Both the position numbers and the translations under genes were made by a program. From Sphingobium sp. EM0848 (GTDB lineage: Bacteria > Pseudomonadota > Alphaproteobacteria > Sphingomonadales > Sphingomonadaceae): a DNA stretch of 64,000 nt. The stretch is from assembly GCF_013375555.1 (NCBI RefSeq), contig NZ_JABXWB010000005.1, positions 558,001 through 622,000 of the forward strand. The letters run 5' to 3'. Shown in pieces: positions 8,550 to 11,005 of this stretch. The notes below the pieces were generated by a model. The model worked only from the letters and a program-made list of their open reading frames with translations. It did no database searches and was not told the origin of the DNA. Every line of letters starts with the position of its first letter. The first letter of the stretch is position 1.

Positions 8550-8617
8550 CTAGGAGCGTTGCGAGAGCATGGTCGGACGTCAACCATCTTGATCCATTGG
8601 CCATTGGGTCTATGTAA

Positions 8618-9514
8618 GAGTCCGTTTGAGAATGGTCATGGATGGACGATTCTGCGAAGCATAAGGCTTCCGAGGGCGACGTGGATCATCGCCTCGGAGA
8701 CGTCGAGGCGTCGTTCGTAATCCCGGACGAGGCGCTTCCATCTGGTCATCCAGCCGAAGGTTCGCTCGACGACCCATCGTCGGGGCAACACCTTGAAGCC
8801 CGGCTCCTTATCGGTGCGCCGCACGATTTCGAGGACGAAGTCGCGATAGACGGCAGCGTCCATGAGGCGGGTACGGTCATAGGCGCCATCGGCGAACAGG
8901 TGCTTGAGCCAGGGCCAGCGTTTGCGGATGGCTGCGACAATGGCCTGGGCACCGGCGCTGTCGGAGATGTCGGCGGTGGTGAGGTTGACCATCAGCAGCC
9001 TGCCATCGGTGTCGACTGCGATATGGCGTTTGCGGCCGACGATCTTCTTGCCGGCATCAAAGCCGCGCTTTTCTGCTGCTGGCGCCTTGATCGACTGGCT
9101 ATCGACAACCGCTGCGGTCGGACTTTGCTCCCGGTTCTCGCGCTCGCGGTCAAGCATCAGGGCAACGTCGTGGATCGTACGGAACAGCAGGCGGCGGACG
9201 AACCGCCTGAACCACCAATAGACCGTTTGCCAAGGCGGAAAGTCGTTCGGCAGCATCCGCCAGCCGCCGCCTGTCCGGGCAAGGTAGCGCAGGGCATCGA
9301 GAACATCGCGCAGATCGGTCGTCGGCTTGCGCCCCCGCTTCGGCACCGGCGGCAGGAACGGCTGGATGAACCGCCATTCCTCGTCGGTCAGATCGGTCGG
9401 GTAACGCTTCGATCGTTTCTCAAATCCTGCCATTCGGCTACGGCTCGCTCGGGTCCACATCCCGAGCTTGAATCACACACACGCCAAGCGTTCAATACAT
9501 TCTCAAACGGTCTC
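8618..9514. mobile_element. IS5-family element, IS427-type, intact
   Basis: An 897-base element with terminal inverted repeats: left GAGTCCGTTTGAGAATG (8618-8634), and right 9498-9514, which on the other strand is the same except at one position. It is flanked by a TAA duplication at 8615-8617 and 9515-9517, fitting the TNA target rule and GAG-type ends of the IS427 group. The transposase frame is complete. It landed between the helicase remnant and the Abi-like locus. Confidence 0.93.
8636..9433 (-). CDS. IS5-family (IS427-type) transposase
   Basis: A 265-residue DDE transposase starting at [11 protein letters not shown]. It opens with the [14 protein letters not shown] block of this group. 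The acidic triad is visible as VVDSQSIK (first Asp), FADGAYD (second Asp) and the VVERTFGW...R region (Glu). It fills almost the whole element, ending 18 bases inside the left terminal repeat. No frameshift is seen, so the element is probably still active. Confidence 0.93.
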
Positions 9515-9565
9515 TAAGCTGTTGTCGTACCGAAATGGCGGATTTCCGTCGCATGAGCAGACCCA

Positions 9566-9650
9566 AAAATAAAAAGGCCCGCCTCACGGCGAGCCTTAAT
9601 ATCCTTAGACGATGAGGGGGGGGCATAAGCCCGCGTTCTCAAAGCCGATG
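9566..9650 (-). ncRNA. Probable small RNA divergent from the Abi-like gene (abiF-RNA-type)
   Basis: On the minus strand a good sigma-70 promoter (TTGACG, 16-18 bases, TATAAA or TATATA; 9655-9684) is followed by about 85 bases without a convincing protein and then a strong hairpin with T-run (9574-9597). The result is a short, well delimited transcript. The neighbouring gene on the other side of the promoter encodes an Abi/HEPN-type protein, and abiF-like genes are known to travel with a structured RNA (the abiF RNA motif, part of RNA-protein toxin-antitoxin loci). Assignment to that motif is inference. A 73-codon open frame covers the region but is better explained by the RNA. Confidence 0.5.
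9574..9597 (-). terminator. Rho-independent terminator of the small RNA
   Basis: Ten-position stem with one mismatch (AAGGCTCGCC pairing with GGCGGGCCTT on the minus strand, loop GTGA), followed directly by TTTTATTTTT. It faces the minus strand only, and no protein gene upstream on that strand needs it, which points to a small RNA. Confidence 0.8.
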
Positions 9651-9654
9651 CATC

Positions 9655-9684
9655 TTTATATAGATCTGTTGACGATCTCGTCAA
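9655..9684 (-). promoter_or_regulatory. Sigma-70-like promoter with operator-like inverted repeat
   Basis: TTGACG at 9684-9679 and TATAAA at 9660-9655 on the minus strand. The -35 box is half of a perfect inverted repeat, TTGACGA-TC-TCGTCAA (9669-9684), lying between the small RNA and the Abi-like gene, so a repressor could control both. Confidence 0.55.
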
Positions 9685-9708
9685 TAGGTTGCCAACAGGA
9701 AACCGATC

Positions 9709-10366
9709 TTGCCTTTCACTCAGGACGAGCTTCACGAGCTGCCTAATGTCATTTCGGGGCCCCGCTTTGCCACCTATCTCCAGGCGATGAATAAAGGCCC
9801 TCGAACTTTACGAGTGGAATCTCGCCCTCTCATCGGCTCTTATCGTGCCCTTGCAAGTATGCGAAGTTGCGATCCGGAATGGCATAGCGGAGGGGATCGA
9901 GATGGTCCATGGCGCGACATGGCCTTGGAGCAACGGTTTTATCCGCAGCCTTCCTCGACCGAAGAAGAATTTCCATTACACTCCTGCCAATGATCTTCAG
10001 GCCTGCGCGGCACGGCTCCCGACGACGGGCAAGATCATAGCCGAACTCAAATTCGCATTCTGGGAAAACATTTTCACCGTTGGGCAGGAAACACGTATCT
10101 GGAACAAGTACTTTCGCACATGCTTTCCTGGTGCTCCCACACAACAGACGATTAGCCAATGCCGTCTCGTTGCGTATAGCGACCTTCGTGCAATCCGACA
10201 CTTACGGAACCGTATTGCCCACCATGAGCCGGTTTTTACACGCAACATCGCCGACGATTATCAACGCATCCATGACATGATTGCATGGCGTAGCCCGGTC
10301 GCGGCCGCCTGGATGGATGGCAAGCAGACTGTACTGGGCCTATTAGGAGCAAGGCCGCAGCCCTGA
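9709..10366 (+). pseudogene. Abi-like HEPN protein, frameshifted
   Basis: Two overlapping frames together give a protein of about 220 residues. The first runs LPNVISGPRFATYLQA from a TTG start at 9709. A frame change between 9781 and 9797 moves the match into frame two, ALELYEWNLALSSALIVPLQ, VCEVAIRNG, and on to LRNRIAHHEPVF and DDYQRIHDMIAW. RNRIAH fits the Rx4H active site of HEPN ribonucleases, and FRNRIAHHEP-type blocks typify Abi_2/AbiD/AbiF-like abortive-infection proteins. As read, the gene is broken, either truly or by a base-calling error in the GATGAATAAAGG stretch. A small-RNA unit faces it upstream. Confidence 0.7.
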
Positions 10367-10507
10367 CATACTTCCCTAAATGATCATATGTGGACGGCCT
10401 CCCTCTTACAGGACATTTAGACAGATATCGGCTGATCGGTTGCCTTCATATGTCCGGCCTTTGAGGTGCGATCTCGATTAATCGCTGGCCAGGATGGCTT
10501 CCGCTGT

Positions 10508-10900
10508 TCAAGTTCCTAACAAGTTTGCGGCACTTGATTGCCATTGCATCGTAAGGAATGCCGTGAGCTCGGATCGATCAAATCCATCTATCTGTTGTCT
10601 TGCAAGTTCAGATCCAGCCCAGCAGCGTGTAATCCCGGGTCGGACCAATTCATACACCCTTGCGAGTAATTCTGTATCGGACCACGGCGCCTGACCAACA
10701 AAGTGGAGCAGGGACTGATGCTTCGCCGATACCCGCGATGGCGCCGTCACCGCCGCCAATGGTTCGACATTTTTGCGCTCCACCGGCATTATCAGGCCAA
10801 GACAATAATCTCGCAGCGGATCAGCGCGATCCGCGTGGCCCACCACGTCCACCAGCTTCTGGACATAGGCAAAAAATGCTGCTTCGCTCACGCCATTCAT
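10508..10900 (-). pseudogene. N-terminal remnant of an IS701-family transposase
   Basis: From ATG 10900 the minus strand reads a typical IS701 transposase start: VVGHADRADPLRDYCLGL, PVERKNVEPLAAVTAP and HQSLLHFVGQAPWSD. The match ends near ELVRPGI; unrelated residues follow before a stop at 10508. The DDE core and terminal repeats are missing. It is transposon debris next to the Abi-like locus. The open frame runs on upstream antisense to the second LuxR gene, but that part is not a gene. Confidence 0.75.
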
Positions 10901-10980
10901 CTCAGCTGCTCCCCGCTGACCATGAAGCGCTGCGGCTAGCACGATTTCGAAACTAGCGAATCCTCCAATTTTCTGACTCA

Positions 10981-11005
10981 GTAGTCCAAATGGAGGTGTC
11001 GGGCC
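10981..11005 (+). promoter_or_regulatory. CTAGTC-type element upstream of the second LuxR gene
   Basis: Reads GTAGTCCAAATGGAGG then TGTCGGGCC. It shares the TAGTC head, A-rich then G-rich centre and GGGCC tail with the copies at 7860 and 17157. It lies directly before the LuxR gene start region, which would allow autoregulation. Confidence 0.45.

Follow-up and report, generated by a model that had tools for sequence, protein, structure and literature searches.

The window, by which we mean the whole 64,000-nucleotide stretch of Sphingobium sp. EM0848 analyzed here (contig NZ_JABXWB010000005.1, positions 558,001 to 622,000), carries at its positions 9566 to 10366 a broken gene of the Abi_2/HEPN type on the plus strand and, divergent from it on the minus strand, a unit made up of a promoter, a predicted small RNA and an intrinsic terminator. 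The features of the locus are as follows.

9679 to 9684, minus strand: −35 element TTGACG of the RNA promoter, from the sequence and the family-wide promoter score
9655 to 9662, minus strand: −10 element of the RNA promoter, either TATATA at 9662-9657 (spacer 16) or TATAAA at 9660-9655 (spacer 18)
9669 to 9684: palindrome TTGACG-N4-CGTCAA over the −35 element, a possible operator
9566 to 9650, minus strand: predicted small RNA of about 80 nt, its ends placed by the promoter and the T-run; fold z-scores
9599 to 9651, minus strand: conserved RNA core (models R1 and R2; R1 49.1 bits, E 6.8e-13, model E-values being rough; covariation)
9574 to 9597, minus strand: intrinsic terminator hairpin of 10 pairs, with a T-run on to about 9565
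9709 to 9795, plus strand: initial piece of the Abi_2/HEPN gene, with TTG at 9709 as start codon and AGGA upstream, frame lost near 9795
9794 to 10366, plus strand: second piece of the gene in another frame, with the HEPN motif RNRIAH at 10205-10222

A preliminary description of this region had claimed the minus-strand promoter, the strong hairpin with its T-run, the frameshifted Abi-like gene and the Rx4H motif of HEPN ribonucleases, and all of these were found at the positions listed. Within the minus-strand unit (9684-9566) about 57 bases separate the −10 element from the terminator hairpin, and the palindrome reads TTGACG-ATCT-CGTCAA. The window RNA (85-87 nt) folds more stably than shuffled sequences, with z-scores of −3.3 and −4.1 in two folding runs. 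Single-sequence statistics did not raise the unit above chance: the interval 9000-11000 holds one terminator against a shuffle mean of 1.7, and a strict promoter scan of the same interval, which requires T at position 6 of the −10 element, omitted the RNA promoter. The unit stands above chance because the same RNA, structure, promoter and terminator recur in the same place beside homologous genes.

The frame of the gene is interrupted near 9794-9796, where positions 1-27 of a profile of intact homologues correspond to 9715-9795 and positions 31-216 to 9794-10357 in the other frame. The second piece (part 9845-10363) scored 18.3 bits with Pfam Abi_2, below the cut-off of 25.6, and 34.2 bits with the PADLOC model PD-T4-5, for which no curated cut-off is shown; the intact homologue L034 passed the Pfam model at 27.6 bits and scored 45.9 with PD-T4-5. 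All 61 members of a protein alignment (A3) carry the Abi_2 domain at E up to 0.01 and are matched by PD-T4-5, and in these rows R170, N171 and H175 of the HEPN motif RNxxxH are invariant. The predicted fold of the protein is shared with PbAbiF. By these tests the protein is an Abi_2 member. In this strain the frame is broken and the RNA unit looks complete; intact copies of the gene are present in other genomes.

Structure and control signals of the RNA family

The secondary structure was derived from the sequences themselves in an alignment of 45 hand-anchored cores (A2). It consists of an outer helix, in which GCC-A-CGGG faces CCCG-A-GGAC or GGC-TT-TGAG faces CTCA-TC-GTC, to name two examples, of an inner hairpin of three pairs, which is GGC-GNRA-GCC in many members, and of an unpaired C-rich strand that is nearly invariant in part and reads CCUCCCC in many. 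In the window the outer helix lies around TGAG (9641-9638) and CTCA (9616-9613), and the inner hairpin is GGC (9631-9629)-TTAT-GCC (9624-9622), again with the unpaired C-rich strand. Cells of the alignment were paired at 86.5% compared with 79.0% in shuffles, none of 500 shuffles reaching as high, and double-sided changes numbered 67 compared with 24.7. Pairing fell to 36-53% when the partner strand was displaced by 1-3 columns, and RNAalifold alone recovered seven of the 11 pairs. A larger alignment (A4; 93 rows, 74 distinct) gave 83.4% pairing against 77.2% and 79 double-sided changes against 30.9, although A4 was fitted to the model. Two outer-helix pairs, 9-46 and 10-45, are weak, being unpaired in 43 and 42 of the 74 A4 rows, respectively, and free-energy folding returned the core fold in five of six RNAs tried, L022 favoring another fold.

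The family occurs in alpha-, beta- and gammaproteobacteria and in actinomycetes, with a core that can be aligned across genera and that showed no variable segment resembling a spacer. R1 was built from 45 seeds, the window among them, and the window core is the sole R1 match in the whole genome, which holds one copy each of the RNA and the protein gene. Tandem repeats of the ToxI kind were not found, each matched source among the 93 plus 45 having one core match except L026, which has two separate units on opposite strands. We rejected a small open reading frame within the RNA: core lengths of 50-56 nt fall into all three classes modulo 3, so the core is not coding.

Control signals were evaluated in 93 distinct units with enough flank, drawn from 112 matches. 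An RNA promoter scoring at least 9 of 12 was present in 80 of the 93 units, compared with 9% of shuffles, and 76 of these 80 promoters lie 0-9 bases before the core; a terminator follows the core in every unit (93 of 93), compared with 5.7% of shuffles. On the gene strand a promoter of that score was found in only four of 88, no more than in shuffles, and a Shine-Dalgarno-like string in 36 of 88. Because promoter and terminator belong to the RNA and the gene strand shows no promoter above chance, the RNA would, judged from these signals, be the strongly expressed partner, as expected of an antitoxin. The inverted repeat at 9669-9684 is present as the preliminary description had claimed, but the joint control of both transcripts that it was thought to allow is speculative: TTGAC-N6-GTCAA, with at least four of five letters in the second half-site, occurs in 17 of 92 units (other spacings tried, 0-7).

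Association of the RNA with the Abi_2 gene

A small-RNA unit beside an Abi/HEPN gene had been proposed on the understanding that a lack of conservation next to homologous Abi genes would speak against it; the RNA proved to be conserved there. A DNA search with 9520-10400 showed joint conservation of RNA region and gene in four plasmids of sphingomonads, and matched an Asticcacaulis plasmid over the RNA alone. A protein search returned 545 plasmid records with homologues. The sample of loci consisted of the best 80 of at least 543 confirmed genome loci and of 26 viral loci. Applied to 93 sources, R1 gave 93 matches in 92 of them (two in L026); the unmatched source, L106, is a contig that begins inside the gene, and the matched sources comprise 41 seeds and 51 non-seeds, some of them near-copies of seeds. 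Among 45 further sources 12 matched (L002-L005, L113-L120), and the 33 that did not are distant homologues, a split-gene locus with two entries (L006/L017) and a cut contig (L121).

Presence of the RNA followed the identity of the protein to that of L034. After deduplication it was present at 94 of 95 loci with at least 36% identity (41 of the 95 being seeds, and L193 being counted on a partial 17.1-bit match only), at eight of 31 with 30-36% and at none of 20 below 30%, bins that leave out loci whose match spans less than about 100 residues as well as L106 and L121, which have no upstream sequence. At the lone exception among the close loci, L006, the gene is split over two frames and transposase-like sequence abuts its start. 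The RNA is divergent from the gene in all 88 distinct intact loci, and the distance from core to first profile residue is 27-185 bases (median 62).

Genome-wide RNA searches were run with strict filters, at which weak matches are lost. Across 398 genomes of the phylum there were nine places matched by R1, spread over eight genomes, and 23 matched by the protein profile at E ≤ 1e-20, spread over 21. Six of the nine RNA places, the window included, sit upstream of a protein place and point away from it. With a more sensitive search the RNA was also recovered at the protein places L154 and L155 and at none of the other 15, and three of the nine RNA places are without an Abi_2 gene (L143 and L146, with none in the fetched flanks, and L145). 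Across 289 genomes of the class, 18 places in 16 genomes were matched by the protein profile at E ≤ 1e-40, and six places by R2. Of these six, three adjoin a protein place, two are without one (L205 and L206, from the same genus) and one is weak and partial; with the partial match of L193 added, 14 of the 18 protein places have no RNA. The RNA was kept in six of seven broken-toxin loci with usable upstream sequence (the window, L024, L026, L073, L087, L105 and, counted once, L006/L017), a count that gives weak support, L073, L087 and L105 being draft or metagenome assemblies in which the frameshift may be an error.

Relation to AbiF systems and probable function

The RNA is not an abiF RNA (RF03085), the motif with which the preliminary description had tentatively identified it and whose covariance model it had suggested as a check. 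No Rfam family matched the window at gathering score, RF03085 was absent at E up to 10 in 9200-10800 and at E up to 1 in the relatives scanned, and R2 matched none of 20 loci fetched with RF03085, two of which exceed the RF03085 cut-off. The RF03085 fold has 37 positions, with an outer six-pair helix, an inner three-pair hairpin and a conserved stretch in the loop of that hairpin. At L171, one of the two loci over the cut-off, RF03085 and a weakly matching abi gene share one strand, in contrast to the arrangement in the window. What survives of the earlier assignment is the RNA-protein toxin-antitoxin locus as such, which is probable, but with an RNA other than the abiF motif. Further candidates were rejected: isrJ (20.8 of 37 bits) and the Betaproteobacteria toxic small RNA (17.9 of 50 bits) fell below the Rfam gathering scores, and sequence-profile matches in the PDB were to ribosomal proteins only, at E 0.05 or worse, as by chance.

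Type III systems of the ToxIN kind share the logic of an RNA antitoxin but have the ToxN fold, a tandem-repeat RNA and a co-directional gene order, which are not seen here. Among the closest systems is AbiF/AbiFr of Prevotellaceae (PDB 8vz6; as cited in PMC12373285 and PMC12737573), from which the present pair differs in having an RNA without an RF03085 match, with another secondary structure and on the opposite strand. In Clostridioides difficile, AbiFCd is likewise an Abi_2 toxin with the HEPN motif, and its partner RCd22, about 100 nt long and equipped with a terminator of its own, neutralizes the protein by direct binding; RCd22 is, however, co-directional with abiF, with read-through into the gene, and holds two RF03085 motifs, whereas the RNA described here has one core and is divergent (PMC12373285). 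The published C. difficile layout, with the RNA upstream on the same strand, was found in none of the 88 distinct intact loci. PD-T4-5 of E. coli is a plasmid-borne, distant relative of AbiF/D that acts in abortive-infection defense, and its PADLOC model matches the present proteins; the portion of PMC9519451 considered describes no RNA partner for it. Among titles and abstracts, which covered few subscription journals, we recognized no account of an RNA lying divergent to Abi_2 genes, and we do not claim that none is in print.

We consider it probable that the locus is a toxin-antitoxin or abortive-infection module in which an Abi_2/AbiF-fold HEPN ribonuclease is the toxin and the divergent structured RNA its antitoxin, and by analogy the module would work like AbiF. 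With a sigma-70-type promoter and a terminator of its own, the RNA should be in excess, and its transcription should also hold toxin transcription down, because the toxin gene has no promoter above chance and in some relatives starts inside the RNA promoter. The RNA would most likely bind the HEPN protein directly and block it, as AbiFr and RCd22 do for AbiF, in a type III-like manner. Loss of the RNA, for example through shutoff of host transcription by a phage or through loss of a plasmid, would free the toxin. What the sequences show is the conservation of the RNA, its structure and orientation, the promoter and terminator signals and the predicted protein fold; transcription, binding, toxicity and the trigger are inferred.

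It is unlikely that the RNA instead silences the toxin mRNA by base pairing (type I-like) or acts by transcription interference alone without binding the protein. Interference is plausible where the start codon lies within or beside the RNA promoter (L030, L032, L107), and a regulator could attach to the palindrome over the −35 element, but interference alone does not account for the covarying internal structure. Nor does the RNA pair with its own gene appreciably better than with other loci: its mean rank was 0.476, where 0.5 means no preference, and the mean energies were −51.0 and −49.8 kcal/mol, respectively (n = 88, first 120 coding bases only). Still less do we expect the RNA to be a cofactor, or a guide or sensor that activates or directs the nuclease as in Cas13-type systems. 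The protein does share the fold of AbiF, whose HEPN toxins with RNA antitoxins are thought ancestral to Cas13 (PMC12737573), and the C-rich unpaired strand could pair with a trigger RNA; against this, the core is alignable across genera with no spacer-like part, and retention of the RNA at toxin-dead loci suits an inhibitor better. That the RNA is a regulatory small RNA or a leader or terminator placed there by chance is extremely improbable. Some copies do lack an Abi_2 neighbor, but 94 of 95 close loci carry the RNA, six of nine RNA places in the 398-genome sample of the phylum are upstream and divergent of one of the 23 protein places, and the gene on its downstream side varies (antiporter subunit at L023, recombinase at L025 and helicase at L028 in the annotated records looked at).

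The finding adds a second family of partner RNAs, distinct in fold and opposite in gene order, for a branch of Abi_2 proteins that is encoded on plasmids, prophages and chromosomes and often annotated 'hypothetical protein'. It suggests how cells safely carry such toxin genes, supplies a covariance model to locate such RNA-gene pairs and predicts that a screen cloning the gene but not its divergent RNA may overlook or misjudge it. There is a small chance that on this branch of the AbiF lineage the RNA partner was exchanged or remodeled and that its conserved C-rich strand is the sensor, in which case pairing with G-rich or Shine-Dalgarno-like RNA during phage infection would open the RNA and release the nuclease; if so, RNA sensing in this lineage would predate guide RNAs.

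Flanking elements and related loci

Mobile-element sequence lies on both sides of the locus, because it is flanked by the following.

8617 to 9515: IS5-family element, with a transposase open frame (NF033580) at 8636-9460 on the minus strand and 18-nt terminal repeats at 8617-8634 and 9498-9515
10508 to 10960, minus strand: partial IS701-type transposase (53.7 bits of a cut-off of 150)

The IS5-family element ends about 50 bases beyond the T-run of the RNA.

Family RNAs without an adjoining Abi_2 gene are candidate solitary antitoxins or remnants; they are found in L205 (1501-1552), L206 (1501-1552), L143 (1501-1554), L146 (1501-1555) and L026 (2531-2581), the last of which has its second RNA beside a truncated toxin gene. 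At L145 the RNA (1501-1551) stands about 370 bases upstream of, and divergent from, an open reading frame (1923-2588) with a HEPN-like RNQIIH that scores below the Pfam Abi_2 cut-off. A solitary antitoxin on small enterobacterial plasmids was rejected on the basis of two records. The region was matched by 119 plasmid records (Salmonella, Escherichia, Klebsiella and others), 11 of which cover at least 80% of RNA plus gene; in the two opened of the 108 below that cover (L209 and L210, mobilizable E. coli plasmids of 4.6 and 6.0 kb) one deletion takes out the RNA promoter and fuses the RNA core to the C-terminal part of the toxin, with the result that neither partner looks functional, and this double loss says nothing either way on retention of the RNA with a dead toxin. 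A toxin-less RNA in Vibrio phages (31 records) was likewise rejected, the 20 matches listed covering query bases 73-130 only, where the core ends and the terminator follows, which is terminator similarity; 11 further phage records lie beyond those listed, two of them from Acinetobacter phages. Scanning viral contigs twice with exact patterns of the core gave no match, though diverged members occur in such contigs. A partial match in G601 (22 bits, positions 9-41) was not counted as a convincing RNA.

Among 33 distinct distant relatives without an R1 or R2 match, a divergent promoter-terminator unit was detected in 10, compared with none of 165 shuffles and none of 33 on the gene strand, by a measure that recovers 73 of 91 loci with the R1 RNA. 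Some of these ten units contain CCCCGG...GCCTCT...ATGC...CCGGGG, reminiscent of RF03085. At L122, L123, L203, L156, L159, L165 and L169 distant Abi_2 homologues are accompanied by a short, divergent RNA-like unit of another type, which shows a C-rich 5′ strand, a CCTCT-like middle and a matching G-rich 3′ strand, with a T-run in several; the unit resembles RF03085 by eye, but RF03085 gave no match where scanned (all but L203). Going by these sequences, the RNA partner seems to have diversified within the family. L156 also holds a DUF3800-IX RNA (RF02968; 2426-2493, 48.1 bits, over the cut-off) near its distant Abi_2 gene. In the IncP-typed plasmids L031, L212, L213 and L214 the gene has parA-type partition genes as neighbors, a context in keeping with plasmid maintenance.
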